Origin: a virus
Strand: one strand, 5' to 3'
IMG/VR virus record: IMGVR_UViG_3300042507_005434
Coordinates: 1 to 22,610 of that record
Length of the DNA stretch: 22,610 nt
The notes beneath the pieces were generated by a model, which had not been told where the DNA came from, did no database searches, and saw only the letters and a program-made list of their open reading frames with translations. Shown in pieces: positions 2,000 through 19,193 of this stretch. Each line of letters opens with the position of its first letter. Position 1 is the stretch's first letter. Both the position numbers and the translations under genes were made by a program.

Positions 2000-2022
2000 G
2001 CCAGCGGCGGCGTGTCAAAATC

Positions 2023-2250
2023 TCAGGCTTGATCGGCGCGGTCACAGCAGCCGGAGAGGCGCTGACGGTTGGCCGGGTGGGCTCGTTCGGCTCCGGCATC
2101 AAACGCCGCCTTGGCCTCGGGCGTGTTCTCGCCGCGGGCTAGGCAATCGCGGCAATTTCCCAGCCAAGGCCGTCCGCCATACCAGCCGAGCGCACAGGTG
2201 AATTGGCCGCGGTCGCGGGTGCGAGATTGGTGCGGGCAGGTCATGGGCAT
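2023..2250 (-). CDS. Small Cys-rich protein, possible zinc-binding
   Basis: This is a 75-residue protein starting at ATG 2248-2250, which overlaps the end of the upstream gene by 10 bases. Cysteines fall at residues 5, 19, 33 and 36 (the last two as CRDC), with a further CC pair near residue 68. With His7 and a GWYGGRPWLG segment this gives a compact C-x13-C-x13-C-x2-C arrangement that could bind one zinc ion. I do not know a named family. Small Cys-rich proteins of this kind occur between tail-tip genes in some phages. Two overlapping alternative frames exist here, but they are Arg/Pro-rich shadows. The reading frame is chosen on its balanced composition and its tight coupling to the gene before it. 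Confidence 0.6.
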   Translation of the reverse strand: MPMTCPHQSRTRDRGQFTCALGWYGGRPWLGNCRDCLARGENTPEAKAAFDAGAERAHPANRQRLSGCCDRADQA

Positions 2251-2864
2251 GCAATGGCGTTGATTTCAAGGTCGAAATAGTAAAAACCATTGAAGCCGCC
2301 TGCTGGGGAGCTGCGGGGGGCTGTTTCATAAGCGACCTCGAAATACTGTTTCGTCAACTCAAAAATGCCTATGTCTCCAAAGAATGCATAGGGAGCCATC
2401 AATAAATTCCAATCTTGGTCTGCGCTTGCCCACACGCACAGTTCGCTGCGGATAAGCACAACTGATCCGGGACCGTTTTGTTCTCGGTCGTCGCTCCAGG
2501 TTACTTCGTAGCAGTCAAAAAATTGATCTTCGACCAAAGCGTTATCTGGTGCCAGACCATCGCCACGAAGCAAGCAATTCCCGACAATTCTGGTGGTGCT
2601 CGTGCTGGAGTCGCTCAAGGTCCACTGGCCGTCTATGACAGACAGTGTTACCGTGCCGCTGGCAAAAGTGCTCCCGCTTTTGGACGCGCTGCCTTGAAAG
2701 CGTCCGGGCCAGTTGATGGTCACTGCATCCGGTAAATATGTCGCGGTGTAGTTGATCCCCAACTGATTAGCTGGGTACAAGCAGCATTCTGGTTCACAGC
2801 ACGCGCACGACACCTTGCCGTTGTTCATTACGACCTTGCCGTTTTGCAATTTGACCGAGGGCAT
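2241..2864 (-). CDS. Tail-tip protein with an N-terminal Cys cluster
   Basis: This 207-residue protein begins three bases after the upstream stop. The N-terminus MPSVKLQNGKVVMNNGKV is followed at once by a cysteine cluster (CACCEPECC, about residues 20-28). The rest reads like a beta-sandwich: alternating hydrophobic residues, many Ser/Thr/Gly, Trp and Tyr, and a closing FYYFDLEINAIACP. The Cys cluster could form disulphides or bind metal. I do not recognise a family. The DNA is visibly more AT-rich than the neighbouring head genes, which may mark it as a recently exchanged host-range gene. Placement downstream of the tape measure and next to the fibre gene suggests a tail-tip or fibre role (inference). 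Confidence 0.72.
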   Translation of the reverse strand: MPSVKLQNGKVVMNNGKVSCACCEPECCLYPANQLGINYTATYLPDAVTINWPGRFQGSASKSGSTFASGTVTLSVIDGQWTLSDSSTSTTRIVGNCLLRGDGLAPDNALVEDQFFDCYEVTWSDDREQNGPGSVVLIRSELCVWASADQDWNLLMAPYAFFGDIGIFELTKQYFEVAYETAPRSSPAGGFNGFYYFDLEINAIACP

Positions 2865-2867
2865 GAT

Positions 2868-3155
2868 TTAGCAATTCTCGGTGGCGATCCATTGGATTGC
2901 GCCGTTGATCGAGCCGAGAACATAGGTTCCGCTGGTCGGCGGCTCGGGGATGCGCGCGAGTTCATCCAAGGATTTTTTGAGTTCGACCGTCCAGCCGTCG
3001 GCGCTTTGCGTCACTTTGATGTCCGGGTCGCCGTCTTGCGGGATGGGCGAGCAGGCTTGGAAGTTGTGGTCGAGCTTCCCGGCGCTGATTTTGAACGGCT
3101 CGCTTTTCGGGTTAGTGCCACCTAAAAGCTGGGAAAATTTGTGCAGCACGCTCAT
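2868..3155 (-). CDS. Hypothetical tail-module protein
   Basis: This is a 95-residue protein. Its ATG at 3153-3155 overlaps the upstream stop by one base (TAATG), a typical translational-coupling junction. The sequence (MSVLHKFSQLLGGTNP ... DIKVTQSADGWTVELKKSLDELARIPEPP ... GAIQWIATENC) shows a central alternating beta segment and a C-terminal part that reads like a short trimerisation or collar domain. It resembles short phage proteins in which a text such as 'NGAIQWIATE' closes the chain. No signal peptide or membrane segment. Function unknown; position suggests a tail-tip component. Confidence 0.7.
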   Translation of the reverse strand: MSVLHKFSQLLGGTNPKSEPFKISAGKLDHNFQACSPIPQDGDPDIKVTQSADGWTVELKKSLDELARIPEPPTSGTYVLGSINGAIQWIATENC

Positions 3156-3805
3156 TAGTCAATCGGCTCAAGGATTTGCGTGGTGGTGAGGGTGGAGCGA
3201 ATCACGCGCCCGATTTCCTGCTGGGACAGCTCCGTGATGAAGGCGGTTTTTGACCTTTCGAGAACATTCAAGATTTTCACTTCTTGGCCCTCGACATAGC
3301 GAACAAGGCCAAGGCGGCTATTAAAGCGCTCGATGGGCTCGACGGGACTGCCGTCGCGGGGGCTGACCAATTCGTTGCTAATTTTGGTCCATGTAATTGA
3401 GCGATACGGCGCAAAGTAGTCGGTGCGATACGGTCGCTGGGCGACGACGGCCAAGGCGGCCAAAGTTGATTCTGGCACGGCGCTGGTGAAGGACCGGGCT
3501 TCTTTGCCGTCAAAGACGACGTAGCGCGGCGGATTCGTGGCACCGACCAGTTCCACGTCGCAAAAGAGCAAGCCGCCGCGCTTGTTGACCGTGCGACTGA
3601 GAATAAAAAGCCGGTCGTCTTGCAGCGGGGGCAAACCTTTGAATTTGTCAGTGACCGGCGCATCGATGGCGAGACCGGCCAAGAGCGATTCGCTGGGCAA
3701 AAAGTAATTGGCGGTGACGGTTACCAGACCGTCGTTTGCCACATTCACATTGGCGCTGACGATTCGGCGAACGTCGCCGGTTGGTTTGACGATGGTGGCG
3801 GGCAT
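3155..3805 (-). CDS. Hypothetical protein immediately downstream of the tape measure
   Basis: This 216-residue protein has its ATG at 3803-3805, three bases after the tape measure stop, with no Shine-Dalgarno. Sequence features include an N-terminal beta-rich half (VSANVNVANDGLVTVTANYF) and a middle with PPRYVVFDGKEARSF. A C-terminal half follows with LVRYVEGQEVKILNVLERS and a final basic/Thr-rich end. The first gene after a tape measure in long-tailed siphophages is usually the distal tail protein or an equivalent hub component. That is the most likely role here, but I see no residue pattern that proves it. No transmembrane segments or enzymatic motifs. Confidence 0.72.
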   Translation of the reverse strand: MPATIVKPTGDVRRIVSANVNVANDGLVTVTANYFLPSESLLAGLAIDAPVTDKFKGLPPLQDDRLFILSRTVNKRGGLLFCDVELVGATNPPRYVVFDGKEARSFTSAVPESTLAALAVVAQRPYRTDYFAPYRSITWTKISNELVSPRDGSPVEPIERFNSRLGLVRYVEGQEVKILNVLERSKTAFITELSQQEIGRVIRSTLTTTQILEPID

Positions 3806-3808
3806 AAG

Positions 3809-5734: not shown

Positions 5735-5752
5735 TTGATTCGCGGGGGGGTG

Positions 5753-6511
5753 TCAAGAAACCGAGCCAAGGCCCGGATAGCGGGTCATGGTGCTTTTAAT
5801 TTGTTTCGACGCGGCGAGCTTGACGCTTTTGCTGAAGAAGTTAGCGCGGGCGTTAAGGGCTTTGCGAAAAGCGGTGCCCGCTTGGGCCCATCGGTTTAGG
5901 TGTGTGAGGTTGTTGACGAAGCCGACTTCGTAGGAGGAGCCGCTGCCCTTGCTCATGACTTGGATCAAATCGCGCATTTCGCCTTTTTTGTGGTGCGCGG
6001 CTTTTTTGAGATAGCCGGGAGCCTTGACGGGAATGTTGAGTGCTTCGCCGATCTTGACGAACATCGAGGCGGCAAGCCCGCGCGCTTGCTTTTTGCGATC
6101 CAGCGACTTGGTCCTCTGCTCCTGCATCTGCCGCCACAGCCACGCGGGATAGGCTTTGGGCTCGTTGCTCGCGCTGAAATAATAGACCAGCTTGCCGTTC
6201 TTGGCCTTGGCGCGACGCTCGGCGGCTCGTTGCTTTAGTCGGGAGATTTGTCCTGGCGTGTATTGTTTGCCCGTTCGGCTTTCTGGGCCAGAGTAAGCAA
6301 AGTCGTATTTGGCACCAGGGCGTTTGCGGTGGTTGGTCTCGATGGTTTTGACCGTGGCTTTTTTGGTCGTTCGCACCGCGCTGGTCAGCATCGCTCCCAG
6401 CTCGTGCTTCATCACGGTCTCAAAATCCTTGCCGCTAATCTTCCGCAAATCGGTGAGCGCCGCATGGAATCGGCGGGCAGCTTTTTCGTCGGGGGAGATT
6501 TTGACCTGCAC
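5753..6511 (-). CDS. Basic hypothetical protein between the tail chaperones and the tape measure
   Basis: This 252-residue protein starts at GTG (6509-6511), one base after the stop of the chaperone extension, with a CTGACACC element 19 bases upstream. It is strongly basic: TTKKATVKTIETNHRKRPG, SRLKQRAAERRAKAKNG and KKAAHHKKGEMRD are all Lys/Arg-rich. The N-terminal part (FETVMKHELGAMLTSAVRTTKK) has a weak resemblance to gp10-type tail-completion proteins, but I would not assign it. A protein of this size between the G/GT pair and the tape measure is unusual, since in lambda the tape measure follows directly. It could bind the tape measure, DNA or RNA. Function unknown. Confidence 0.8.
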   Translation of the reverse strand: MQVKISPDEKAARRFHAALTDLRKISGKDFETVMKHELGAMLTSAVRTTKKATVKTIETNHRKRPGAKYDFAYSGPESRTGKQYTPGQISRLKQRAAERRAKAKNGKLVYYFSASNEPKAYPAWLWRQMQEQRTKSLDRKKQARGLAASMFVKIGEALNIPVKAPGYLKKAAHHKKGEMRDLIQVMSKGSGSSYEVGFVNNLTHLNRWAQAGTAFRKALNARANFFSKSVKLAASKQIKSTMTRYPGLGSVS

Positions 6512-6512
6512 G

Positions 6513-7135
6513 CTAGACGGCAGGTGTCAGCGCGTCGGCGAGCAGTTGGTCGATGTCGCGGACGGTGGAGGTTCCGCTATCCATCCAGCGCGGGGAGCGA
6601 CCGGCGGCGAGTTCGTCGAGCACGATGAGCTGGTTGAGCATGGCCAACGGCACACGCCACAGGGCGTCCTCGAGGGTTAGGCCGTATTTTGTGACCCGCG
6701 CCGCGATGGCTAACTGCCACGACGGACGGGCCTTTAGGCTTTTGGGGAGTCGTCCATCGTCGGCGCGGCGTTGCCGCTGGCGGTGATGGAGGCGGCAACC
6801 ATCTCGACTTGACGCGTGATCCACGGCAGGAACGCGAACATGTCGCCGGGCGGGCGGGTGTCCATAAACTCGAAGATGTCGGCTGTGAGGTCGTCGATGG
6901 TGGCGATGCGGCGGCGAATATCGGCAATCGTGCGACTGTGCAAATAGACGAACGAATAGACGTTGAAGGCGTAGTCGCCGGACTGCTCGCCGGTGACGAA
7001 GCTGTTTTTAAGTCGTGAAAGCAAAGACCAAGTTGCCGACGTGATGGGCCGGAGCTCCAGGTCGTTCACTTGTTCGTTGCCTGCAAAGGTCGCCTGCTCG
7101 AGCAGGCCCGCGCGTTTTTCGGGGTCGATGTCCAT
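6513..7135 (-). CDS. Tail assembly chaperone frameshift product (gpGT type)
   Basis: Ribosomes that slip -1 at the heptamer at 6740-6746 leave the 133-aa gpG-like frame after Lys132. They add 75 residues, SLKARPSWQLAIAARVTKYG... to ...LLADALTPAV, for a 207-aa fusion. The extension frame has no plausible start codon of its own after the upstream stop, which argues against a separate gene. The added domain contains LTLEDALWRVPLAMLNQL, a short helical pattern like the T part of siphophage chaperones. That part binds the tail tube protein while the G part binds the tape measure. Position upstream of the tape measure fits. The fusion is inferred from sequence; its efficiency is unknown. Confidence 0.82.
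6734..7135 (-). CDS. Tail assembly chaperone, zero-frame product (gpG type)
   Basis: This is a 133-residue protein from ATG 7133-7135 to a TAA at 6734-6736. It is mostly helical and acidic (MDIDPEKRAGLLEQATFAGN ... TIDDLTADIFEFMDTRPPGD) and ends MDDSPKA. The stop lies just one codon after the slippery CCA AAA pair. In lambda and many long-tailed phages the gene two to three places before the tape measure encodes gpG, the abundant chaperone that coats the tape measure, with a minor frameshifted gpGT. The arrangement here matches. Upstream is a TTGACAAT element at 22 bases and no Shine-Dalgarno; further upstream is a hairpin that may be a terminator. Confidence 0.85.
   Translation of the reverse strand: MDIDPEKRAGLLEQATFAGNEQVNDLELRPITSATWSLLSRLKNSFVTGEQSGDYAFNVYSFVYLHSRTIADIRRRIATIDDLTADIFEFMDTRPPGDMFAFLPWITRQVEMVAASITASGNAAPTMDDSPKA
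6740..6746 (-). other. -1 ribosomal frameshift slippery heptamer
   Basis: On the minus strand the sequence is C CCA AAA in the zero frame, a perfect X XXY YYZ heptamer, followed by GCC and the zero-frame stop TAA. After a -1 slip, Pro and Lys codons become CCC and AAA, so both tRNAs can re-pair. The -1 frame is open from here to the TAG at 6513-6515. I did not find an obvious strong downstream stem by eye. Confidence 0.82.
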
Positions 7136-7163
7136 ATCGACCGCGGGGAATTGTCAACAAAGA

Positions 7164-7191
7164 GGAAGGGCGGAGCCGAAGCCCCGCCCTT
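7164..7191 (-). terminator. Possible rho-independent terminator with a TTCG loop
   Basis: On the minus strand, GGGCGGGGC pairs with GCTCCGCCC (one mismatch) around a TTCG tetraloop (stem 7168-7189), followed by TTCCTCTTTG. The stem is strong but the T-tract is interrupted, so termination may be partial. It lies in the 93-base gap between the 133-aa gene that ends at 7229 and the chaperone gene. The rest of the gap (7192-7228) is A/C-rich and shows nothing further. Confidence 0.6.
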
Positions 7192-7228
7192 TGTCATAAG
7201 CAACAACACAGGAACTAACCAAACAAAA

Positions 7229-7630
7229 TCACATGACGAGTTGCGCGACGTCCCTTTTGGTTTTGGCGTCGAGCTTTTCGTCGGCCAGCATCACGCCGCC
7301 GTTGGGCAGGTTCACCATGACGAGGCGGCGGGTTCGTTTGAAAATGACGTCCAATAGCAGCTCGCGGTTGAAAAGTGACGCGCGCGCGCCGGGCAGGTCG
7401 GGAAGTTGGTCGCGGAGGGCTTCGCACGCCTCTTGACTTTCGAGGATGGCGGCAACGATCTGGCCGGTGGAGAGTCCGCCTGCGCCGTCGGGGCTGAACC
7501 AGTAGTGCACAACCTCGCGCCCTTTCTGGACAACGCGCGAAATCGGGTCCTGTTGGCGAAGTGGGACGCCCACCGTGCAAAGGGTGGCGGCGACTTTTGT
7601 GTCCGTCGTGGCGTAGTAAGCGACCTGCAT
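7229..7630 (-). CDS. Hypothetical protein between tail tube and chaperones
   Basis: This 133-residue protein starts at ATG 7628-7630, 33 bases after the tail tube stop. The N-terminus MQVAYYATTDTKVAATLCTV is followed by PLRQQDPISRVVQKG, a central helical part (QIVAAILESQEACEALRDQLPDLPG) and a basic C-terminal part (LDVIFKRTRRLVMVNLPNGG ... KTKRDVAQLVM). No catalytic motif, signal peptide or membrane segment. It does not look like a known tail tube or chaperone to me. Composition is normal for a real gene. It is followed by a hairpin, so the transcript may be attenuated after it. A small tail-assembly factor is a reasonable guess, nothing more. Confidence 0.75.
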   Translation of the reverse strand: MQVAYYATTDTKVAATLCTVGVPLRQQDPISRVVQKGREVVHYWFSPDGAGGLSTGQIVAAILESQEACEALRDQLPDLPGARASLFNRELLLDVIFKRTRRLVMVNLPNGGVMLADEKLDAKTKRDVAQLVM

Positions 7631-7663
7631 CTCTGAATCTCTGGTTGAGGGCGTTGGGGCCGC

Positions 7664-8011
7664 TTAGAAGCCGTGGTTGGAAGCGCCGATCGTCACCGAT
7701 TGGAAATCATTGGGCGCGCGGTTCACGGCCACGCTGTCCACGTAGAACGTGCCGGTGACGCCACCGAGGCTCGCTGTGGCGTTGGCCAGGGTGATCGAGG
7801 CGCCGATGGTGGGCAGAGCGGCTTTGATGTATCCGCTCATGGAGGCGACGGACTTTTTGCCGTGATAGGCAACGGCGACATGATCGCCGTCCTCGTCCAC
7901 AACGACGGTTTTGTCGCTGTCAGAGGTTTGCGAGAAAGAGGTGAAGACCGCGACGGTTTCGGAGGAACCGCCGAAAGTGATTGAAGTAAGTCCGATAATG
8001 GTTGCACTCAT
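7664..8011 (-). CDS. Major tail tube protein (probable)
   Basis: This is a 115-residue protein. I start it at the ATG 8009-8011 (MSATIIGLTSITFGG); an upstream in-frame TTG would add only MTTHQWQ and lies inside a TTGACAAC element. It is beta-rich: HVAVAYHGKKSVASMSGYIK, then a Gly/Ala-rich middle, then GTFYVDSVAVNRAPNDFQSVTIGA. The '(F)YVDSV... NDF ... VTI' ending resembles small tail tube proteins of long-tailed phages. Position after the connector genes and before the chaperone/tape-measure set is exactly where the tube gene sits. It is shorter than lambda gpV (246 aa), which carries an extra Ig domain. Assigned by context and pattern. Confidence 0.72.
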   Translation of the reverse strand: MSATIIGLTSITFGGSSETVAVFTSFSQTSDSDKTVVVDEDGDHVAVAYHGKKSVASMSGYIKAALPTIGASITLANATASLGGVTGTFYVDSVAVNRAPNDFQSVTIGASNHGF

Positions 8012-8035
8012 TTGCCATTGGTGCGTTGTCAACTT

Positions 8036-8251
8036 TTAGCGGACGCGATAGATGCCGGTACGCTGGCCGGACTTCTGCTCGTAGCCTTCGAAAACGGCGT
8101 TTTTGATGCTGGCGGCGACGGCTTCGTCGGCCAAACATGCCGGCCAATCGGTCAGGCGGATAAGGCCGTCAGGGCGCTGGGGTGGGATAGGCTTCGTTGC
8201 ACCAGACTCGAAGGGGGATGCTGCGGCGGAAGCTGCGGGTTTCGTTTTCAT
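8036..8251 (-). CDS. Short hypothetical protein overlapping the upstream gene
   Basis: This is a 71-residue frame starting at ATG 8249-8251 inside the end of the previous gene (83-base overlap) and ending 24 bases before the tail tube start. The C-terminal two thirds (PDGLIRLTDWPACLADEAVAASIKNAVFEGYEQKSGQRTGIYRVR) look protein-like. The first 20 residues are Ala/Pro/Lys-rich and could be out of frame with the true start. Without this gene, 8036-8168 would be an empty 150-base gap in an otherwise tightly packed operon, which favours it being real. A later non-ATG start (CTG or TTG) inside the gap is possible. Function unknown. Confidence 0.55.
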   Translation of the reverse strand: MKTKPAASAAASPFESGATKPIPPQRPDGLIRLTDWPACLADEAVAASIKNAVFEGYEQKSGQRTGIYRVR

Positions 8252-8965: not shown

Positions 8966-10746
8966 GCGCTGGGGGTGGTGTCAGCTTTCGGCACGAGGTC
9001 GGGATTGCGGCGGCGGAAGATGGCCTCACCGACTTGAAAGGCGTCCTCGGAGTTTTCGGCGGCATAGGTGGCGTCGGTCGGCACGGCGGGATTCCAAAAC
9101 GGATGCTCGTGCTTGAAGACCAAATCGGACGGGACGAGAAAACCGCTGCGTTTGGCGCGCATGGAAAACTCGGTGTCGGAAAACACTCCGGCATATTCGG
9201 GAGCGAGGATGTTTTGCTCGCCATAGCCGAGATGCGGAAACGTCGGGCGGGTGACGCAGAACGTGACCATCAAGTCGTCGTTGCGGTAGCCGTCTTTGAT
9301 TTGCAGAATTGCTGGTTGGTTGGCGTCTACATGCGCGCGCAAAGCGTCCTCAATCGCCACGTCCCAATGAAGCGGCGGGAATACGTCGTCTTGCGCGGTG
9401 ATGATGATTTGCCCGGTGGCGGCGTTGGTTGCGGCGTTGTAATTTTGGACGGCGGTTCCGCCAATGCGGTCGAGGTTGCCAGCGGGTGAAACGGCATGAC
9501 GGAAGCGGGAGAGGATGCCTGCGGATTCTTCGTCGTCCGCGCTAAAGCCGAAGATGTATTCGATGCGCTCCGGGTTGGCGGCGGCATCGAGCCAGCGTTT
9601 GCGGGTGAGCGCGGCCTGTTGCGCGCGGCCACGGGTGGGATGGCACACGCTGATGCTGTATTTGTGGCCCTTGAGCCGCGCGCGCTCAATATCATCAGCC
9701 TTGTCGGGTTGGCCGGACATGCGGAGCCATTGCGTCCAAAGTGCTTCACCGGCCCAGCCGTAGAGGCCGTCGCGGTGTGTCCACGGCTTGTCCACCGGGC
9801 GCGGCAAGGCCATCATTGCGCGGATGTAGGCTTCGGCGGTCACAAGGTCGCCAAGATCAAGGTGCATCGCGCCAAGCAGGGCCAAGGCCTCGCGGCGGTT
9901 GGGTTGCGTGCGGTACGCACTGTGCAGCGCCGTGAGCATGGCCTTGTATTCGGCGCTGTCCGTTTCGAGAATCGGCGGGCGGGCCAGTTCGCAGATGTTT
10001 AGGCAAAGCTCGTAACGCTCGGTGGCTTTGAGGTTCGGGTGTGCCAAGGCTTGCTTGGCGAGATCCATAGCCTCGGCTTTGCGTCCGTGGCCCATGTATT
10101 CGCCGTGGAGATGGTAAAGCTCGCTGACGGTGCGCTCGGCTTCGGGGATGCTTTCGAGGATGGTCAAATTGCGGTTGCTGCCTTGCTTGGGCTCGTCGTC
10201 GGGCAGGTGCACGACGGTGGGTTCGTCACAGCGGGCGATGTTGGTCCCGGCGTCCATCTGGAAATTCTCATGGATGCGATTGACCCATCGGCCCTTGTCG
10301 CGGCGGACGAGGCGTTCGCGGAGGTTGTGGGCGATGCCGCGACCGGCCACGTTGTGATACAGGGCAAAGGCGTCGAATTTGTCGCCGTGTTTTTCAAGCA
10401 GCTCGTGCAGGGCGCTGGCGAAATTCGGGCCGGGTGTGTCGTCGCTATCCACCCACAGCGCCCAAGGCTTCGAGGCGAGGTCGAAGGACTTTTGCCGCGC
10501 GGCTCCAAAGTCGTCTACATGCGGCCATTGATTGCCGGGGGCGTTGGCATAAACGCCGTAGATCGCGCCGTGCTTTTGGCACACTTCGGCAACCTTGAGG
10601 TTTTTCGCGTCGGCTCCACAGGCATGAACCACGACCATTTCGCCAACGGCGGGGCCGAATTGAGTGAGGCAACGGTCAAGCCGTTTGGGTTCGTTGCCGA
10701 CGATGACACAAAGCGCGATCTGCTCGCGTGGGCTGGTTTTCTCCAT
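8962..10746 (-). CDS. Tandem glycosyltransferase with central TPR-like helices
   Basis: This is a 594-residue protein. Residues 8-105 have the GT2/GT-A start (IALCVIVGNEPKRLDRCL) and the acidic nucleotide-sugar motif WVDSDD at 98-103. Residues about 195-355 are helical repeats resembling TPRs (HLDLGDLVTAEAYIRAMMALP). From about 361 a second GT-A-like unit begins (HKYSISVCHPTRGRAQQAAL). It has IITAQDDVFPP (acidic pair 453-454) and a late SDLVFKHEHPFW histidine motif. Two donors or two steps, or one catalytic and one binding domain, are possible. The likely target is a virion protein, since no hydroxymethyl-nucleotide gene is seen. Start: ATG 10744-10746; a TTGACAAC element lies 23 bases upstream, and the methyltransferase stop TGA is inside that element. 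Confidence 0.85.
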   Translation of the reverse strand: MEKTSPREQIALCVIVGNEPKRLDRCLTQFGPAVGEMVVVHACGADAKNLKVAEVCQKHGAIYGVYANAPGNQWPHVDDFGAARQKSFDLASKPWALWVDSDDTPGPNFASALHELLEKHGDKFDAFALYHNVAGRGIAHNLRERLVRRDKGRWVNRIHENFQMDAGTNIARCDEPTVVHLPDDEPKQGSNRNLTILESIPEAERTVSELYHLHGEYMGHGRKAEAMDLAKQALAHPNLKATERYELCLNICELARPPILETDSAEYKAMLTALHSAYRTQPNRREALALLGAMHLDLGDLVTAEAYIRAMMALPRPVDKPWTHRDGLYGWAGEALWTQWLRMSGQPDKADDIERARLKGHKYSISVCHPTRGRAQQAALTRKRWLDAAANPERIEYIFGFSADDEESAGILSRFRHAVSPAGNLDRIGGTAVQNYNAATNAATGQIIITAQDDVFPPLHWDVAIEDALRAHVDANQPAILQIKDGYRNDDLMVTFCVTRPTFPHLGYGEQNILAPEYAGVFSDTEFSMRAKRSGFLVPSDLVFKHEHPFWNPAVPTDATYAAENSEDAFQVGEAIFRRRNPDLVPKADTTPSA

Positions 10747-10765
10747 CTCGCGGGGAGATGGGTTG

Positions 10766-12007
10766 TCAACAAACGGCGGCTATCCTCGCCTTGGCGATCT
10801 CGACGTATTCGGCCTCACGCTCGATGCCGATAAAGTTGAAGCCCTCCAGTGTCGCCGCCTTGCCCGTGCTGCCGCTGCCCATAAAGGGATCAAGCACGAT
10901 GCCGCCCGGTGGGGTGATGAGGCGGCAAAGGTAGCGCATTAGGGCAGTGGGCTTGACGGTGGGGTGGTGGTTGCGGGCAAGTTTAACGCCGCGCGTATGT
11001 TGAGCGCCGCCGTCCGCCCTCACCGTGCGGTCTGGCGCCTGAATCCCCTCGCATCCCTCATCACGATCCTTTTTGCTTGCCTTGGCGCAGTAGAAGAAGC
11101 GGGCGGCGGAGCCGGAGTCTCGGTATTGCTGCGTCTCAGCGTTGCCCCATGTGCCGCTGTAAACGCCACCAGAGTCTGTGCCGGTGTTACCTCCGTTTCT
11201 TGCGTTCGCCGCAGGAAACAACCCCACCACATCGTCGCTGCCGTCGTGGATTAGGTTTGCCGGCCAGCGACCTTGCTGTCTGACTTGTTTTATACGCGTG
11301 CCGCGGTCAATCCATCCGCCGCCATAAACGCTGGTTGATCCATCTGACGACTTGCATGGGGCTTCATTAAAGCGTTCGCCGTTTTCGTTTGGCGGCACCT
11401 TGCACCCATCCACATTCAGCGCACCCGTGCCGTGCTCTAGCACGTTGGCCGCCACGGTGCCGGACAGCGGCTTGCGGGCGACGGTGATGGGTTCCAGCGC
11501 GGGCTTCAGGGCGGTGCCCCAGCCTTGCCATTGCTTTGCGGCGTGGGTGGCGGGGGCGGTGATGATCGTCGTTGACGGACCGCCGAGGCTTTCGCCATAT
11601 CCTGTTTCGCCCGTGCCGTTGTTTGGGCGACGGCTTGCGTATGCGTTGACCCCCACCACCTCCCTTTTCACCCCAGCCGCCTTATCCATCGCCTTGCTAA
11701 CGTCGTGCGACTTCGGAAACCCTGATCCATACACCCACGCAATCATGTCCCGAATTTCAAAGCCTGCGTCCTCAATCCGCACGGCCATCCGGTGTTGCGT
11801 GCGCGTACCCGCAAACGCCAGCAAATGCCCGCCCGGCTTGAGCACCCGCAAACACTCGCGCCATATCTCCTCGCTTGGCACATCGTAGTCCCAACGCTTG
11901 CCCATGAAGCTCAGGCCGTAGGGCGGGTCGGTGACGATGGAATCCACGCCGGCGTCGGGCATGGTGCGGAGAATTTCCAAACAGTCGCCGTGGTAAATCT
12001 CTTGCAT
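10766..12007 (-). CDS. Orphan DNA methyltransferase (N6-adenine/N4-cytosine type)
   Basis: This is a 413-residue protein. Motif IV DPPY is at residues 27-30 (TDPPYGLSFMGKRWD). Motif I DPFMGSGSTG comes late, at 373-382. This beta-type order, with motif IV before motif I, is that of a class of amino-methyltransferases; a closing FNFIGIEREAEYVEIAKARI completes the SAM-binding fold. The large middle (about residues 95-345) is a variable target-recognition region with several Gly-rich loops. It has no restriction endonuclease partner nearby. It probably protects phage DNA from host restriction or marks it for packaging or replication. It starts at ATG 12005-12007, 24 bases after a terminator, with a TTGACACT element 22 bases upstream. 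Confidence 0.92.
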   Translation of the reverse strand: MQEIYHGDCLEILRTMPDAGVDSIVTDPPYGLSFMGKRWDYDVPSEEIWRECLRVLKPGGHLLAFAGTRTQHRMAVRIEDAGFEIRDMIAWVYGSGFPKSHDVSKAMDKAAGVKREVVGVNAYASRRPNNGTGETGYGESLGGPSTTIITAPATHAAKQWQGWGTALKPALEPITVARKPLSGTVAANVLEHGTGALNVDGCKVPPNENGERFNEAPCKSSDGSTSVYGGGWIDRGTRIKQVRQQGRWPANLIHDGSDDVVGLFPAANARNGGNTGTDSGGVYSGTWGNAETQQYRDSGSAARFFYCAKASKKDRDEGCEGIQAPDRTVRADGGAQHTRGVKLARNHHPTVKPTALMRYLCRLITPPGGIVLDPFMGSGSTGKAATLEGFNFIGIEREAEYVEIAKARIAAVC

Positions 12008-12030
12008 CTCGCGGCTTGCCGAGTGTCAAC

Positions 12031-12060
12031 AAAACGAAAACCCCCGGCGGTTGCCGGGGG
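12031..12060 (-). terminator. Rho-independent terminator after the major capsid gene
   Basis: On the minus strand, CCCCCGGC pairs perfectly with GCCGGGGG around an AACC loop (12041-12060). TTTTCGTTTT follows at 12031-12040. It lies 33 bases after the capsid stop. It should end most capsid transcripts and lower expression of the methyltransferase and genes beyond. Confidence 0.88.
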
Positions 12061-12092
12061 CTTCGTGTTGCGGTTGGGGAGATGGAGACGAA

Positions 12093-12989: not shown

Positions 12990-13010
12990 AGAGTTTTTGT
13001 GGGTTGGGGG

Positions 13011-13385
13011 TTAAGAGTAAAAAGTTTTGAGGATGGCGGCTTTGTTGGCGCGGTAGAACTCGGTGGCCTCCGGGCCTTCGAGCGCGGCGAACTTTTGCGC
13101 GGCAGTCAGCTCGGGCTCGAGCGTTGCGGCAGCGACCGGCTCCAAGCCAACACTGGCGACGATGGCGGCGGCCTGTTGCCCGGCGCTCATTTGCTCGCTG
13201 CGAAGGACGTTGATTTCGTTGTCCTTGTTGGCGTTTTCGGCGGTGAGGCGCTCGACTTCGGCCTTGAGGGTTTCGATTTCCTTGGCCGTGTCTTCGGCGG
13301 CTTGCGCGGCGATGGACTCGGCTTCGACTTTGGCGGAAAGTTCGGCCTGGAGGGCGTCAACTTTCGCTTGGAGTTCGGCGTTCAT
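13011..13385 (-). CDS. Nested capsid scaffold (Nu3-like), in-frame internal start
   Basis: ATG at 13383-13385 (Met237 of the protease) has a purine-rich GGAAG six bases upstream and a TTGACACC element 23 bases upstream. It would give a 124-aa protein starting MNAELQAKVDALQAEL, almost entirely coiled coil plus the C-terminal coat-binding tail. This reproduces the lambda C/Nu3 layout, in which a separate scaffold is made from the 3' part of the protease gene. The start is inferred from sequence and analogy. Confidence 0.65.
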   Translation of the reverse strand: MNAELQAKVDALQAELSAKVEAESIAAQAAEDTAKEIETLKAEVERLTAENANKDNEINVLRSEQMSAGQQAAAIVASVGLEPVAAATLEPELTAAQKFAALEGPEATEFYRANKAAILKTFYS

Positions 13386-14093
13386 ATTATCTTCCGCGGA
13401 GGTGTCAACCGCGCCGTCGGTGACGGGCGCGTCGGTGACGCTGATGACTTCCTCGGCTTGAGCTTGGGGAGCGGTGGCTTGCATAGTGTTTTGAAAATTG
13501 GCGAAGCGGGCGCGGGCCTGCTCGGGGGTGATGGACGCGGCGGCGGCAAGCGGTTCGTCAATCTCATCGACAAAGCCGAGGCGGAGGGCTTCACCGGCGT
13601 CGAGCCACGTTTCGTCGTCCATCATTTTTTCAATAGACGCGCGGGGCTGGCCGCTTTTGCGGACGTAAGCGTTGACCAGCGTGGCTTTGAGTTTGTCGAG
13701 CACGTCGGCTTCTTTGCGGAGGTCGTTGGCGTCGCCCATGGTCATGCTCCAAGGGTTGTGAATCATGATGAGGGCGTTTTCGGCCATGCGGGTTTCTTCG
13801 CCGGCCATGGCAATGACGCTGGCCATGCTCGCCGCAAGTCCATCGACGTGAACGGTTAAGCCGCCCTTGTGACGCTTGAGGGCGTTGTAGATGGCCGCGC
13901 CTTCGGTGACGCTGCCGCCAACGGAGTTGATGCGAAGGTCGATGTGCTGGCCTTTGAGTTTTTTGATGTCGGCGGCAAATTGCTTAGCGGTGACTCCGCC
14001 GAACCCGATCTCATCGTAGATCGAAACCTCCACGCTTTCGGGGGCTTCACGGTCATCGGTCGATTGAATTGCATACCAGCGGGCGGAGTTCAT
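13011..14093 (-). CDS. ClpP-type prohead protease fused to a C-terminal scaffold
   Basis: This is a 360-residue protein; I start at ATG 14091-14093, which overlaps the portal stop as ATGA. The longer upstream frame lies inside the portal gene and is discarded. Residues 52-65 (DLRINSVGGSVTEG) form the ClpP oxyanion strand. The catalytic residues by analogy with ClpP are Ser89 (GLAASMAS), His112 (MIHNPW) and an Asp near 159-160 (MMDDETWLDAGEALRLGFVD). Residues about 237-310 form a long heptad coiled coil (LQAKVDALQAELSAKVEAE), the scaffold. The C-terminus ends ATEFYRANKAAILKTFYS, which may bind the coat protein. The role is to cleave scaffold and portal/coat parts during head maturation, as with lambda gpC. 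Confidence 0.93.
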   Translation of the reverse strand: MNSARWYAIQSTDDREAPESVEVSIYDEIGFGGVTAKQFAADIKKLKGQHIDLRINSVGGSVTEGAAIYNALKRHKGGLTVHVDGLAASMASVIAMAGEETRMAENALIMIHNPWSMTMGDANDLRKEADVLDKLKATLVNAYVRKSGQPRASIEKMMDDETWLDAGEALRLGFVDEIDEPLAAAASITPEQARARFANFQNTMQATAPQAQAEEVISVTDAPVTDGAVDTSAEDNMNAELQAKVDALQAELSAKVEAESIAAQAAEDTAKEIETLKAEVERLTAENANKDNEINVLRSEQMSAGQQAAAIVASVGLEPVAAATLEPELTAAQKFAALEGPEATEFYRANKAAILKTFYS

Positions 14094-15580
14094 TGGCTTT
14101 GCGGCGGTGTCAAAGTCTCGGCGGGTGTCGCCGGTGCGGGGTTCGGGTTGAAAGTGGCGATGCTGTCGGCGCTGATGCCGAACTCGGCGGAAAGGTCGGC
14201 AAGGTATTTCGCCTCGGCGGCGCGTTGGCGAAGGGCGTCTTTCCACTCAAGGCCGCGCTCGGAATAGTCCTCGCTGTAAGTGCGAAGCCCGGCGCGGACG
14301 TCGTTCAAATTGGCTTGCGCCTCGCGTCCGTAGTCCACGGAAGCAGCGGCTGGGCGTTGCCATTCGACGCGCCACCAGTTGTCGTTCTGCGGGATGAGGC
14401 CGCTTTGCATACCGAGCGTGATGACGTGTGCCCAAACGCGGGAACAGAGGCGGTCAATGAGCAGGGCTTGGCGTTGCTCAAAGGTGCGCTGGGCACGGAC
14501 GAGAACGGCACGGAGCGCGGCTCCACCGGCGTCAGCCGGACGCGCGGCGAACTCCCACGGAATGCCGATGTTCAAGCAGACTTCGCGGAGCAGCATGTCA
14601 CAAAATTCGCGGAAGTTTTGCGACGGGCGGTTGCTGTTCCACGCCACAAGGTCTTCGCCCATGCCGAGGCGGGGGATGGCTCCACCGGCGTTGCCGAGGG
14701 ATTCGACGGTCACTTCGGAGTTGTCTTGGGTGTTGACGCTGGCGGTGGATTCGCCAAAGAAGTCCGCGCCTTGCGGGTTGCTGGATTTGATGGCGAGGGC
14801 AACGTAAGAGGAAATCTTGATTGCCATTTTCTCAAAGCTGATGGCGTCGGACACGTCGCGGAGGTGGTTGATGGACGGCGCGAGCGGGGTGACATAGCGG
14901 AGCTCGTCGCCTTGGCTGGCCTCGCCGACGTGGATGAGCTGTTGCGCGGGAATGTCCTCGAAACGCTGGGAGGGGTCGATGCCGTCGCCGATCAAGTGAC
15001 GGTAGAAAATCGGGCGCATCTGCGGGTTGACCACCACGCCGTCAATGGTGTTTGGACCACCCTCGCGCGCGTTCGGGTTGCTCGGCTCGTAGATCGAGCT
15101 GCGGGCGTCGCCGATGCGGTGGGCAAGGATGAGTTGCAGGGCGGGATAGCCGGTGGATTGCGCAGTGGTGCGGAAGAACACCTCGCCGTCGCGGTCGATG
15201 GCGACCGAGGCGATGCGCTGCATTTCGCGCCAAGTGTAGCGGCCTTGGATGTCGGCGACGCGGGACCATTGCTCAAAGAACGCTTCGGCGGCGGCGTCCC
15301 ATGCTTCATCGCCGGAGCGGGCCTGCGGGCGGATGCCGGAGCCGGTGACGTAACGGGCCTTTTCATTCACAAGGCCGCGCACAAAGGGCATGTTGTTATA
15401 GACCCAGCGCGAAAGTTTCATAAGGCGTTCGCGGTCGGCTCCGCTGACGTCGATGTGCGAATCAACCGCCGTGGCGTTATAGGGAAACCGGCGCTGGATG
15501 GATGGACGCGCGGCGTCGTAGCTTTGCGCCTTGGGGCTGAAGGCTTTGGTGACTAATTTCCAGCGGTCGGCAAGTTTCAT
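14090..15580 (-). CDS. Portal protein (lambda gpB family)
   Basis: This 496-residue protein starts at ATG 15578-15580, overlapping the upstream stop as ATGA. Diagnostic text for the lambda B-type portals: an N-terminal YDAARPSIQRR, then RLMKLSRWVYNNMPFVRGLVNEKARYVTGSGIRPQ (about residues 52-86). RDGEVFFRT and HVGEASQGDELRYVTPLAPSINHLRDVSD lie in the middle. The stem/wing region has the signature QNFREFCDMLLREVCLNIGIPWEF (about residues 320-345) followed by RAQRTFEQRQALLIDRLCSRVW. The twelve-subunit portal ring sits at one vertex, takes the terminase, and passes DNA to the tail. Length is near the family norm (lambda B is 533). The C-terminus is Pro/Thr-rich (PNPAPATPAETLTPPQSQ). Assigned with high confidence. 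Confidence 0.96.
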   Translation of the reverse strand: MKLADRWKLVTKAFSPKAQSYDAARPSIQRRFPYNATAVDSHIDVSGADRERLMKLSRWVYNNMPFVRGLVNEKARYVTGSGIRPQARSGDEAWDAAAEAFFEQWSRVADIQGRYTWREMQRIASVAIDRDGEVFFRTTAQSTGYPALQLILAHRIGDARSSIYEPSNPNAREGGPNTIDGVVVNPQMRPIFYRHLIGDGIDPSQRFEDIPAQQLIHVGEASQGDELRYVTPLAPSINHLRDVSDAISFEKMAIKISSYVALAIKSSNPQGADFFGESTASVNTQDNSEVTVESLGNAGGAIPRLGMGEDLVAWNSNRPSQNFREFCDMLLREVCLNIGIPWEFAARPADAGGAALRAVLVRAQRTFEQRQALLIDRLCSRVWAHVITLGMQSGLIPQNDNWWRVEWQRPAAASVDYGREAQANLNDVRAGLRTYSEDYSERGLEWKDALRQRAAEAKYLADLSAEFGISADSIATFNPNPAPATPAETLTPPQSQ

Positions 15581-15897
15581 ACGAGGGGGTAATTGAACGC
15601 GACCACGGAGGTCTTGCTGGTCTTGCGTGTCAGCCAGAGCTCAAGATCGGCGGACGAAAGGTCTTTGATTTGCTTCCACGCATAGAACGCCAACTCGGCA
15701 ACGGTGCCTGCGGTCTGGTCGGGGGGGAGGCTGTACGAATAGGACTTGCCGCCCATGCTGGCGCTGACCAAGACGCGCCCGCCTTCCTTTGCTACGGTGA
15801 AGTTATTGGCGGCGATCTGCTCGAGCGCGGCAACGGTCTTTGTCGCGTCTTTGCTGTTGGCGACCCAAACGGAGAAAACAAAGCTGCGCGGCGTCAT
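15577..15897 (-). CDS. Small protein in the gpW (head-completion) position
   Basis: This is a 106-residue protein between terminase and portal. In lambda this slot holds gpW, a 68-aa head-tail connector. This protein, however, does not look like gpW: it starts MTPRSFVFSVWVANSKDATKTV, has a small beta-rich middle (SMGGKSYSYSLPP), and ends with helices VAELAFYAWKQIKDLSSADLELWLTRKTS. It may be a distinct connector or packaging factor that took the gpW place. Start ATG 15895-15897 has a TTGACACC element 22 bases upstream, where TGA is also the terminase stop codon. No Shine-Dalgarno. Family not recognised. Confidence 0.78.
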   Translation of the reverse strand: MTPRSFVFSVWVANSKDATKTVAALEQIAANNFTVAKEGGRVLVSASMGGKSYSYSLPPDQTAGTVAELAFYAWKQIKDLSSADLELWLTRKTSKTSVVAFNYPLV

Positions 15898-15915
15898 TGT
15901 GAACGCGCGGCGGTG

Positions 15916-17691
15916 TCAAACTTCGGCGGCGTCTTCGATCTTGGGCTTGATGATGTTTCCGTATTCGGCCAAGGCCAGAATCATCAGCTCGCAATCGAGC
16001 ATGTGGTTGGGACGGCGACCGATTTGTTTCCAGATGTAGTTCTCGCGGCCTGTGAGCGGGCTGCGCTTCACTACTTTGCGGTGCGCGTCGAGGTGCGCTT
16101 TGTATTCCTCGGAGGCATCAGCGGCCACGGTCCACGCCGGACCCTTGCCGCCGCGTAGCCACTCCAGCACGTCTTGCGCGGCGGGCGACGAGAAGAGCAT
16201 GAGGAAGTAGCCGCGGCGATAGGGCTTGAGGACGCTAATGGCCTTGCGAAGCATTTTGCCAAATTTCACGCCGTAACCTTCCGCGCGGTCTTCGCCTTTG
16301 GCCGGGATGTAGCGGTTGCGGATGCAGACATCGAGCACTTCGTCGGTGCGGAAGCCGGAGTCCACCACGACCAGTCGCGCCATCGTGCCGCCGATGTTGC
16401 GGGGTGTGTCCAAGCCAAGCTCCTGCACTTTGAACTCGAGATCCGCCCAGGTGGTCAACTGGCCTTCGTCGATGAGTTTGCTGGAGCCGTCTTTGGCGAA
16501 GGCTCGGCAGACGAAATAAAAGCAGGACTGCTGCACGTCCACCGCCATGATGCGCGCGGTGTCGTCTTCGATAGGTTCGCGGAGTTTGTATTCGCCAACG
16601 GTAAGCGGGCGGGTTTCGTCGGTCATGGCGTCTTCCCACGGCTCGGCCAAGATGCTGTTGACGAAATCTTGCAGGCCCATGAGGGATTGTTTGTCTTGGA
16701 GGAATTTGACGGCGAGGGCGCCAAAGCTACGGCGGACGGAGTAGAGCGCGGACAGGTGGTAGCTGCGATGGCCGGGCAAGGCGTTGGCGTTTTCGGCCCG
16801 CCACTCGCCGCCGCGTAGCATCTTGGTTTTGAGCGCGTCCGTGATGTGGCCGTTGCAATGCGGACACTCGAGGCGGGCGGTTTCGCGGACGCGCTTCAAG
16901 TCCCATTGGTTCTGGTCGATGCGGGCGCCGTCGTCCCATTTCATCATGGGCCACGAAAGGAGTGTCATCTCGCTGCAATGGGGACACGGCAACCAGAATC
17001 GGCGTTGGTCGCCTTCGAGCCATGCTTTCCATATTGAGCCCTCCTGCGTAGTCGGCGTGCTGGTCATGACGATCAAGTGCATCGGGAATGACGCGACACG
17101 CTGGACGGCAAGCTGCACGGCGGCGGCTTCTTGCTTGGTCTTGGTTTTGTATTTGTCCACCTCGTCAAGACACAGGAGCGAGATGGAGCGTCCGGCCAAG
17201 TTCCCGGGGCTGTTGCTGCCGATGAACCACAGGTGCATGCGGGCGAAGGCTTGGTCGAGGTTTTTAAATTTGTCTTTGTTGCGTGGGAGCTGGGCGCGCA
17301 AAACTTCGTTGTCGTCGATCATGACTTGCCAGCGAGACTCGCTGAATGATTGCGCGTTTGTTTGCGTATCGAGCACCCACAGCGCGGGGGCCGGCGCGCG
17401 GACGAGGCGGTAGGCCATACCGACTTGAATGGCCGTGCTTTTGGCCACCTGTGCGCCGCAAAGCAAAGCCATCGAGCGGATGCCGCTGGCCGGATGGAAG
17501 GCATCGAGCCATTCCCTCATGTAAGGGTAACTGCGAACACGAAACGGCCCCGGCGATGAGGTGAAGCGGCTGCTGAAGGTGATGTTAGACTCAGCCCATT
17601 CAGTGACGCTTTGCCGAGGATGAGGCACCCATTGGCTACGCCACATGGCCAAGGCTTTTTCGCGGCTGTCAGGAATCCACTCGCAGCGCAT
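15916..17691 (-). CDS. Terminase large subunit (GpA family)
   Basis: This is a 591-residue packaging motor. The ATPase half has a P-loop variant CGAQVAKST at 78-86 (Lys84), the Walker B strand LLCLDE at 172-177 and coupling motif TSTP at 210-213. A zinc-binding insertion with CPHC at 236-239 and 276-279 follows, typical of the GpA group. The RNase H-like nuclease half has acidic residues at 385 (MAVDVQQ), 444 (VVVDSG) and 566 (HMLDCELM), all of which look intact. It cuts concatemeric DNA and drives it into the prohead through the portal. Start ATG 17689-17691 overlaps the small subunit gene by 23 bases. Length matches the family (lambda gpA 641). Confidence 0.96.
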   Translation of the reverse strand: MRCEWIPDSREKALAMWRSQWVPHPRQSVTEWAESNITFSSRFTSSPGPFRVRSYPYMREWLDAFHPASGIRSMALLCGAQVAKSTAIQVGMAYRLVRAPAPALWVLDTQTNAQSFSESRWQVMIDDNEVLRAQLPRNKDKFKNLDQAFARMHLWFIGSNSPGNLAGRSISLLCLDEVDKYKTKTKQEAAAVQLAVQRVASFPMHLIVMTSTPTTQEGSIWKAWLEGDQRRFWLPCPHCSEMTLLSWPMMKWDDGARIDQNQWDLKRVRETARLECPHCNGHITDALKTKMLRGGEWRAENANALPGHRSYHLSALYSVRRSFGALAVKFLQDKQSLMGLQDFVNSILAEPWEDAMTDETRPLTVGEYKLREPIEDDTARIMAVDVQQSCFYFVCRAFAKDGSSKLIDEGQLTTWADLEFKVQELGLDTPRNIGGTMARLVVVDSGFRTDEVLDVCIRNRYIPAKGEDRAEGYGVKFGKMLRKAISVLKPYRRGYFLMLFSSPAAQDVLEWLRGGKGPAWTVAADASEEYKAHLDAHRKVVKRSPLTGRENYIWKQIGRRPNHMLDCELMILALAEYGNIIKPKIEDAAEV

Positions 17692-18256
17692 GGCCGGTAT
17701 TACTCAAGGTTGAAAAGACTTGTTCGAGGTAGTCGGCGACGGCATCGCGGGCCAGCTCAGGGTCATGCGGGTTGGCCGCTTGGGCGATAGCTCCAGGCAT
17801 GGCTTCCAATAGCGCGCGGAGCTTGCCGACTTCCTCGGCGATCACGGATTGCACCTGATCGCGGTGCATGAGGTTCTGCGCTTCCTGCTCGGAGCGAACT
17901 AGATCGCGCTTCCTTGTCTCGTGAGCTTCCTCTGCATCTTTGACCGTTCGGCTGGCCGCGCTGCGCTCTTGGATTGTCGAGGCGTTCTCAAAGTCTTTGA
18001 CGGCGATCCGACGCAACCGATCTGTCACGGCCAATTCGTCGGGCAACTCTGGCAAGGCCGACAGCCCCACCGGCTCTACTTTTAAGGTTTGACCGGGGGC
18101 TGCCTTGCTTCGCCGGGCGCTCTGGTTTATCCGCCGCCACTCCATCGCGGCCTCGACGCTGGTCAAGGGCATCCCACGCTTTACGGCTTTGGCAACTGCT
18201 GGCTGGCTGATGCCTAGCGCCTTGGCAATCTGGCCTTGCGATAACCCTTGGGACAT
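17669..18256 (-). CDS. Terminase small subunit (DNA-recognition, probable)
   Basis: This is a 195-residue protein. Residues 5-30 form a helix-turn-helix (SQGQIAKALGISQPAVAKAVKRG), followed by a short basic linker and a long helical region (residues about 85-150: TIQERSAASRTVKDAEEAHETRKRDL). The C-terminus (DAVADYLEQVFSTLSNTGHALRVDS) may contact the large subunit. Nu1-type small subunits share this plan. Start ATG 18254-18256 is read with AAAGG about nine bases upstream, which lies inside the 10-bp inverted repeat at 18262-18282, so translation could be controlled by that structure or by a bound protein. An alternative TTG start in another frame is a shadow. Confidence 0.86.
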   Translation of the reverse strand: MSQGLSQGQIAKALGISQPAVAKAVKRGMPLTSVEAAMEWRRINQSARRSKAAPGQTLKVEPVGLSALPELPDELAVTDRLRRIAVKDFENASTIQERSAASRTVKDAEEAHETRKRDLVRSEQEAQNLMHRDQVQSVIAEEVGKLRALLEAMPGAIAQAANPHDPELARDAVADYLEQVFSTLSNTGHALRVDS

Positions 18257-18261
18257 AACCC

Positions 18262-18282
18262 ATAACCTTTGTCAAAGGTTAT
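18262..18282 (-). promoter_or_regulatory. Perfect inverted repeat upstream of the terminase genes (operator-like)
   Basis: ATAACCTTTG and CAAAGGTTAT flank a single central base, giving 21 bases of perfect dyad six bases before the TerS start. The AAAGG at its 3' end (minus strand) is the likely ribosome binding site, and the TTGACA junction element is the middle of the dyad. Two further GGTTAT copies follow toward and inside the gene. Possible roles: repressor operator, terminase small subunit binding, or a translational hairpin. The rest of the gap (18283-18364) holds a G/C block that might belong to a cos site; nothing else is clear. Confidence 0.65.
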
Positions 18283-18364
18283 AGGCTCGCAGGTATTCTT
18301 CGAAATTGATCGGGCACTTGCGTCTTAGGTCAGCGGGACCCCGAAACCTTGGGGGGGCAGGAAC

Positions 18365-19099
18365 TTACAACAGCGCAATCTGGTGCTGGCCAACCAGCCG
18401 CGCCCCGATGCTTCTGTTTTCATGTCTCCACAAAGGTTCAAGATTGGTAAAGTGCGTTGCCCTCACCATCTGCTGATGATCGGTCAGATCCCACTCAGCC
18501 AACGGGATTTTGTGGTGTATTTCCCATTCCCCGTGATTGTCCCATCGCATACCACGCTTAAACTGTTTCTCAATCCATCCGCGCGCTTCTTGGAAAGTGC
18601 ATCCAAGGTATTCGTTGGTCTTCCTGCTTTTCTTTGATTTGGTCTTGCGCGCAATCCTTGAGATCACGTTTCGCATAATCTGCCGCAGCTTAAACTCTGG
18701 CGTGTCTTTGTATTCGTAATATCTTTTACGCGCATAGTCTGCGCGCTTGCGTTTGTTCTCTTCGTGATTTCCGTAATACAAAGCCAAGGCAATAGATTTT
18801 TTGATTTCTGGATCTTTCGACCAGCAGGACATTGTTTCCCTTTGCGCCCAATCGCCTTGATCCAAATCAAACGCCCACGCCTGCCACTCCTCGACAGATT
18901 GCGGATACCTCTTGCCCCACGCATCTGGCCGCGCATTGCCAGCCCTAACAGCCGCGCGCCTATTGGCCTGTGCTCGGCTTTCAACTGGTATGCCCAGCCT
19001 GCGCTTGACCTTGTTGGGCCACGTCTTTTTAGTGCCCAGCATAAACGCCGAATGCGCGGCTGGTAGTTTGATCGCCACATGGCAATGGAAGCAGGGCAT
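18365..19099 (-). CDS. HNH endonuclease next to terminase
   Basis: This is a 244-residue protein from ATG 19097-19099, chosen because GAGG lies five bases upstream. A GTG at 19172-19174 would add 25 residues; it has the TTGACACC element 19 bases upstream and remains possible. N-terminal MPCFHCH is followed by Lys/Arg-rich helices (KRKRADYARKRYYEYK). The C-terminus is an HNH core: EYLGCTFQEARGWIEKQF, then RGMRWDNHGEWEIHHKIPLAEWD (the metal-site His pair) and HFTNLEPLWRHENRS. HNH proteins beside terminase genes are needed for cos cleavage in several long-tailed phages; homing activity is an alternative. The DNA is more AT-rich than its neighbours, suggesting separate origin. Confidence 0.88.
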   Translation of the reverse strand: MPCFHCHVAIKLPAAHSAFMLGTKKTWPNKVKRRLGIPVESRAQANRRAAVRAGNARPDAWGKRYPQSVEEWQAWAFDLDQGDWAQRETMSCWSKDPEIKKSIALALYYGNHEENKRKRADYARKRYYEYKDTPEFKLRQIMRNVISRIARKTKSKKSRKTNEYLGCTFQEARGWIEKQFKRGMRWDNHGEWEIHHKIPLAEWDLTDHQQMVRATHFTNLEPLWRHENRSIGARLVGQHQIALL

Positions 19100-19144
19100 G
19101 ATCGCCTCGTATCTGCTTCGGGTTGGCTTAAAAAGGCGCGTCGA

Positions 19145-19193
19145 TTGACACGCCGAGACACTCGGTGTTTGCACACCAGAGGTGCGGTGTCAA
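19145..19193. promoter_or_regulatory. Nested inverted repeats with two opposed TTGACAC copies
   Basis: TTGACAC (19145-19151, plus strand) and GTGTCAA (19187-19193) form an outer inverted pair. GGTGT and ACACC (19164-19177) form an inner pair around TTGC. It lies between the DUF3102-like gene and the HNH gene. It could be an operator or a weak hairpin; no T-tract follows, so it is not a typical terminator. Confidence 0.5.

Follow-up and report, generated by a model that had tools for sequence, protein, structure and literature searches.

A TTGACA element set a short, constant distance ahead of late-gene starts in a virus record and in Verrucomicrobiota prophages suggests phage-specific promoters for leaderless mRNAs

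Phage late activators and sigma-like factors include the RinA/ArpU type of Gram-positive phages and gp55 of T4, small proteins encoded just before the packaging genes and acting in late transcription. Cluster A mycobacteriophages such as L5 and D29 carry many asymmetric stoperator sites, which silence, contain TTGACA in the sense of transcription within a 13-bp core (CTTGACA(G/T)CCACC), lie at scattered distances from gene starts and are accompanied by a phage helix-turn-helix (HTH) protein of ~185–200 amino acids (aa). In T4 gene e, the start site is hidden in read-through RNA and exposed in RNA made from the late promoter (PMC3014915). Further, leaderless bacterial promoters in Deinococcus-Thermus (PMC12340547) and mycobacteria (PMC4633059) place the −10 element beside the open reading frame (ORF). 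Here, we describe a TTGACA element that precedes nearly all late genes with a start of their own in the phage record IMGVR_UViG_3300042507_005434 of IMG/VR (the whole stretch of 22,610 bp, hereafter the window). Its minus strand carries the late genes, including those for a GpA-type terminase, a lambda-type portal, a ClpP-type protease, the capsid and the tail.

All 12 TTGACA on the minus strand of the window lie 19–23 nucleotides (nt) upstream of an ATG or GTG that opens a frame of at least 60 codons. This placement is highly improbable (P = 5e-14) at the positional rate of 0.078, which is the share of positions on the minus strand that have an ATG/GTG ORF of at least 60 aa 19–24 nt downstream, and TTGACA ranks first among all hexamers for it; gene starts in all counts are based on ORFs. 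TTGACAM has 13 matches on both strands against 4.8 expected, and all but one are on the minus strand. The original prediction, made from the letters alone, had listed thirteen hexamers before start codons; their coordinates and strand were all correct, as was the distance of 19–23 in each, and the list was incomplete, a further TTGACA at 20281–20286 having been missed. The observed pattern is real, and its strength exceeds the first claim. Two details did not hold: the trailing C or A is no part of the motif (A 23, C 43, G 21 and T 13% at that base in relatives), and TGA serves as stop codon of the preceding gene at three sites (after the terminase large subunit, the methyltransferase and the 252-aa gene) rather than at five or more. 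The CTGACA variant is genuine and conserved at the 101-aa and 252-aa genes, while most other CTGACA are unrelated.

Conservation was assessed in 63 viral contigs retrieved with the terminase (606 kb, plus the window, gene strand). Of 358 gene-strand TTGACA, 94% lie 18–24 nt upstream of a start, as compared to 6% of ACAGTT and 6% of TGTCAA as control hexamers, and the distance distribution in the relatives has sharp limits at 19 and 23–24. Among 126 non-redundant sites, which share descent within each gene family and, with counts reduced at 70–75% identity, are not fully independent, conservation is confined to the hexamer and the flanks carry ~0.5 bit or less. TTGACA is retained in orthologous start regions where flanks and spacer have changed, so that position and orientation are kept despite diverging flanks, and conservation of the late proteins begins at the first codon. 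The outcome that the original prediction had named as its refutation, a lack of such conservation in relatives, is thus not what is seen. In the window family, the motif is absent from genes that overlap or abut the preceding gene (terminase large subunit, portal, 164-aa, 163-aa and others); it is also absent from two free-standing genes, the capsid gene and a 133-aa gene at 7229–7630.

These features bear on two readings of a short element at gene borders in mosaic genomes, namely an RNA processing site or, as the original prediction had proposed, a conserved recombination linker. A linker has no need of a fixed distance to starts and is not expected inside a gene, as is the scaffold site within the protease gene; because the one distance holds even there and the hexamer is the sole conserved part, linkers are unsupported. 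RNA cleavage at UUGACA would keep both arms of the hairpins described below. We find either explanation hardly credible.

The window late genes resemble those of Verrucomicrobia phage P8625 (ClpP 54%, MCP, portal, tape measure, HNH). Scanning the genome collection with the TerL profile brought up no relative; Verrucomicrobiota genomes were located via a 16S probe, and 388 were then searched with a terminase profile. The element is present in prophages of G103, G361, G219, G162, G250, G262, G198, G192, G112, G341 and G268, and absent from those of the same phylum in G370, G245, G058, G060, G265, G147, G145 and G080. In host stretches (317 kb), 0 of 50 TTGACA are placed at gene starts, which rules out a host-wide signal. 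The TTGACA start element is a trait of phage lineages, divergent Verrucomicrobiota prophages included, and a phage-encoded partner is therefore expected. We found no earlier description of the motif in the literature on Verrucomicrobia or on phages.

The element probably marks phage-specific late promoters that are assisted by a phage HTH protein and give leaderless mRNAs. TTGACA would be the upstream element of this promoter class, to which the HTH protein (19703–20290 and homologues) would recruit or redirect the host RNA polymerase, with transcription beginning at the start codon or a few bases off, ~19–23 bp downstream. The resulting mRNA would be leaderless and require no Shine-Dalgarno (SD) sequence. 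Each promoter would serve one to four genes, the downstream ones being motif-less, mostly overlapping and translationally coupled. Read-through RNA would either halt at an intrinsic terminator before the element or hide the start codon in a hairpin, so late proteins would come only from their own promoters. What the sequence itself shows is the element with its spacing, its distribution over phage lineages, the link to the HTH gene, the terminators and the folding pattern; from these we infer where transcription starts, that translation is leaderless, that the HTH protein binds DNA and that the host polymerase is used. The feature expected of leaderless promoters, a short fixed distance from element to start codon at phage genes only, is present.

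Both terminators and RNA folding point in this direction. A stem followed by a T run stands directly upstream of the hexamer at 14 of 75 family sites versus 2.1 in shuffles, and at 9 of 97 prophage sites versus 2.8. A compact terminator scan of the whole window gave no enrichment (31 vs 30), and only the position next to TTGACA is enriched. Because strong terminators end right before the hexamer, expression would need a new transcription start beyond it. Around the start codon, RNA from −18 to +18 has more structure than its shuffles (z −1.11 in the family, −1.05 in prophages), whereas RNA from 0 to +36 has less (z +0.19 and +0.49), and thus the predicted hairpins would form only if the spacer is transcribed. 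This fits leaderless late mRNA together with silenced read-through RNA. Motif-less starts are unstructured (z +0.47). The arrangement is similar to T4 gene e, where the 5′ arm of the hairpin likewise lies between promoter element and gene; T4 late mRNA, however, retains a leader and a ribosome binding site, whereas here the start codon would itself be the 5′ end, and at many genes.

An initiation signal replacing the SD sequence, another option of the original prediction, would have UUGACA in the mRNA recruit the ribosome through a phage factor or an altered ribosome. The distance to start codons is indeed fixed and strand-specific, the motif is missing from translationally coupled genes, and a purine-rich SD 5–12 nt upstream precedes only 4–6% of motif-linked starts against 9% in shuffles; the genes lack SD, and so the word initiation in that option was right. 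However, host genes do not use TTGACA, the start codon is covered by folding of the RNA that separates it from UUGACA, terminators stand directly upstream and the associated protein has an HTH of the DNA-binding type. In addition, a second conserved element, GG at +16/+17 in the 97 prophage sites, keeps register with TTGACA and not with the start codon, most clearly at distances of 22–23, where sites are few. The base before the A or G of the start codon is usually a pyrimidine. On the basis of RNA structure and terminators, we prefer transcription initiation that yields leaderless mRNA to a signal for ribosome binding, and we consider the latter improbable.

TTGACA is also the canonical −35 hexamer, and P8625 has a few TTGACA 36 nt ahead of ATG, fitting leaderless sigma70-like promoters. 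As ordinary host sigma70 promoters, though, the sites described here would have their −10 box at the start codon and transcription would start inside genes whose products show conservation from codon 1 on. TATAAT-like sequences at 16–18 spacing from TTGACA number 0 against 4.4 expected. Because the −10 box is absent and the spacer GC-rich, ordinary sigma70 promoters are no explanation, and we rate them very improbable. The leaderless promoters of Deinococcus-Thermus and mycobacteria share with the proposed late promoters an element abutting the ORF, but have the −10 that is missing here.

The search for a dedicated DNA-binding protein, which had been advised for the rest of the genome, was productive. 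The gene at 19703–20290 encodes a protein with an HTH (TAIAKQFDVTRAAVSKR), and homologues matching its profile occur in 10 of 11 motif-bearing versus 3 of 12 motif-less phages selected by terminase (Fisher P = 0.003); among the three motif-less matches, two are weak and one lies in a fragment. In a forward test, the 388 genomes were searched by the HTH profile alone, the terminase being ignored. The 13 regions fetched in this way show the motif at P < 1e-3 in 5 (G174 twice, G165, G159, G030) and at P < 0.035 in 10 (more weakly in G019, G119, G294, G361 and G198), with per-region P values in several prophages based on few sites. At E ≤ 1e-6, the profile matched 0 of 294 genomes of the phylum of a Brocadiaceae bacterium and 0 of 151 of the phylum of a Fimbriimonadaceae bacterium. 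The HTH gene co-occurs with the element, with exceptions, and its protein is our candidate trans-acting partner.

The class of this protein was approached in several ways. A Sigma70_r4 match (E = 0.025) is below the cut-off, a PHROG sigma match has E = 0.002, and sigma region 2 has no match in the protein; because the likeness to sigma factors and KorA is weak, we call it a candidate regulator and not a sigma factor. A structure search with its predicted model gave no significant match, and none of 50,697 phage records matches the 187-aa form. Like RinA/ArpU and T4 gp55, it is small, is encoded just before the packaging genes and would act in late transcription; homology to them is not shown, and the single short element ~20 bp from the start codon, with no recognisable −10, sets the present system apart. 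HTH type and the base at −1 may covary, the latter being T in G103, G219 and G159 and G in several other cases, but numbers are small.

The regulator gene carries the element itself. In 16 family copies, TTGACA forms codons 2–3 behind an upstream ATG/GTG that is mostly SD-led, and an in-frame ATG stands 20 or 23 nt past TTGACA, a distance maintained even after a one-codon shift. The mostly SD-led start combined with its own TTGACA and internal start suggests positive feedback of the regulator gene. Shortly before the prophage HTH gene, GTTTTGACAGC occurs in clusters on both strands (L214 8800–8990, L218 11690–11850, and L220/L221 of G262b), a possible operator region.

Co-occurrence with an HTH protein also speaks for stoperators, that is, sites for a prophage repressor that blocks elongation or initiation in the lysogen, as the original prediction had suggested by analogy with phage L5. 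Compared with D29, an L5 relative, the hexamer and its sense relative to transcription are identical: the sites are asymmetric, in one orientation and spread over the genome, and D29 carries CTTGACA(G/T)CCACC. Relatives have an integrase-like gene, and many carriers are prophages. However, in D29 the distance from site to next start scatters over 0–687 nt, as compared to 19–24 here; neither the 13-bp core GGTGGMTGTCAAG nor a cognate long core is present, only 6 bp being conserved; and the HTH protein has no significant homology to the cluster A immunity repressor (7r6r E = 0.41, HTH stretch only). Moreover, upstream terminators and start-codon hairpins are left unexplained and are not what roadblocks need, and the element has an apparent start function instead of silencing. 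Given the long core and scattered spacing in D29 and the lack of detectable repressor homology, we did not class the system as stoperators and keep them as a rival that we judge unlikely.

Several observations weigh against HTH-assisted leaderless promoters. A GC-rich spacer with no −10 element is unusual for a bacterial promoter, and the distance from TTGACA to the start varies over 5 nt. The capsid and 133-aa genes have neither motif nor overlap, and therefore some leadered translation must occur. Three regions fetched by the HTH profile lack a clear motif (G109, G317 and one G262 region, G262c), motif-bearing G268 has no regulator within the 20 kb used for the test, and the 6.8-kb fragment G192 has none. 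The HTH resembles sigma region 4 or KorA weakly, the predicted model of the protein has a mean predicted local distance difference test score (pLDDT) of 63, and the recognition helix differs in G103/G219 while the motif stays TTGACA. With regard to polymerases, inspection by eye of the early-region frames listed for two relatives revealed no gene for a T7-like or other RNA polymerase.

Gene expression in Verrucomicrobiota phages appears nearly unstudied, and a late-gene code with a candidate protein is now concrete and testable. The element allows start codons and transcription units to be annotated in many uncultured phages, and it marks a lineage with a possible dependence on mRNAs that lack a leader. 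Should the HTH protein steer polymerase to one box close to the start codon, its size would be unusually small for a promoter-specificity factor. A more tentative generalisation, to which we give less than even chances, is a minimal start code, private to a widespread lineage of Verrucomicrobiota phages, in which TTGACA ~20 bp upstream, with no −10, would be read by a small HTH protein as sigma-like factor, most late borders would be leaderless promoters, and hairpins or terminators would silence other RNA.

Table 1. Sites and associated features in the window (d, distance in nt from the first base of the hexamer to the start codon).
Feature	Position	Strand	d	Remarks
TTGACA	20281..20286	-	20	To internal ATG 20266 of the HTH regulator gene; also codons 2-3 (ATG ATT GAC A) of the SD-led start at 20290; conserved in relatives
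HTH protein, candidate trans-acting factor	19703..20290	-		195 aa; 187 aa from internal ATG 20266
TTGACA	19188..19193	-	19	GTG 19174, HNH gene; site shared by relative L009
TTGACA	18270..18275	-	19	TerS ATG 18256; within loop of inverted repeat (ATAACC..GGTTAT)
TTGACA	15914..15919	-	22	ATG 15897 of 106-aa gene; TGA is the TerL stop
TTGACA	14108..14113	-	20	ClpP-protease ATG 14093
TTGACA	13403..13408	-	23	Nested scaffold ATG 13385; within protease frame
Intrinsic terminator	12037..12064	-		12-bp stem and T run; ends 7 nt upstream of TTGACA
TTGACA	12024..12029	-	22	Methyltransferase ATG 12007; strong intrinsic terminator immediately before
TTGACA	10764..10769	-	23	Glycosyltransferase ATG 10746; TGA is the methyltransferase stop
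CTGACA variant	8979..8984	-	19	ATG 8965, 101-aa gene; CTGACA kept in nearly all of 21 relatives
TTGACA	8027..8032	-	21	Tail-tube ATG 8011
Intrinsic terminator	7166..7191	-		11-bp stem and T-rich tail; ends 8 nt upstream of TTGACA
TTGACA	7152..7157	-	22	gpG-position ATG 7135; inverted repeat GTCGATATGGACATCGAC contains start codon
CTGACA variant	6525..6530	-	19	GTG 6511, 252-aa gene; CTGACA kept in 15 relatives
TTGACA	5751..5756	-	22	Tape-measure ATG 5734; TGA is the stop of the 252-aa gene
TTGACA	2013..2018	-	19	GTG 1999, 363-aa fibre-like gene

The late genes of P8625 are homologous to those of the window, but in P8625 a few genes have TTGACA at 36 nt instead of 19–23 nt, and a −10-like box or an inverted repeat lies in between. 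Four ATGs have such a site (L064, which is P8625: 5412, 10736, 15558 and 22406), and at three of the four TTGACA is followed either by a GTATCC..GGATAC-like inverted repeat or by TATTGG/TATCTG, which resembles a −10 box, ~13–16 nt before the ATG. These sites look like leaderless sigma70-type late promoters, and P8625 may be an evolutionary neighbour of the TTGACA system. The element of the 363-aa fibre-like gene also precedes the homologous gene in G004, G006, G007 and G010. In the same four, TTGACA occurs 20–22 nt before the start of an opposite-strand gene, whose copy in G006 (34488–35222, minus strand) is metallophosphoesterase-like by eye.

At the TerS site (window 18256–18290; relatives e.g. 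L011, L013, L016, L027), TTGACA lies in the loop while the stem letters vary and complementarity is kept, as judged by eye (CATAAGC..GCTTATAG, ATAACC..GGTTAT); hairpins of this type do not generalise to other TTGACA sites. The scaffold start is nested in the protease frame (window 13011–14093), and relatives have a second nested TTGACA-ATG site ~110–120 nt ahead of the scaffold one (e.g. L003 5826). After the tail tube, overlapping frames at 6513–6824 and 6734–7135 resemble a gpG/gpGT frameshift pair.

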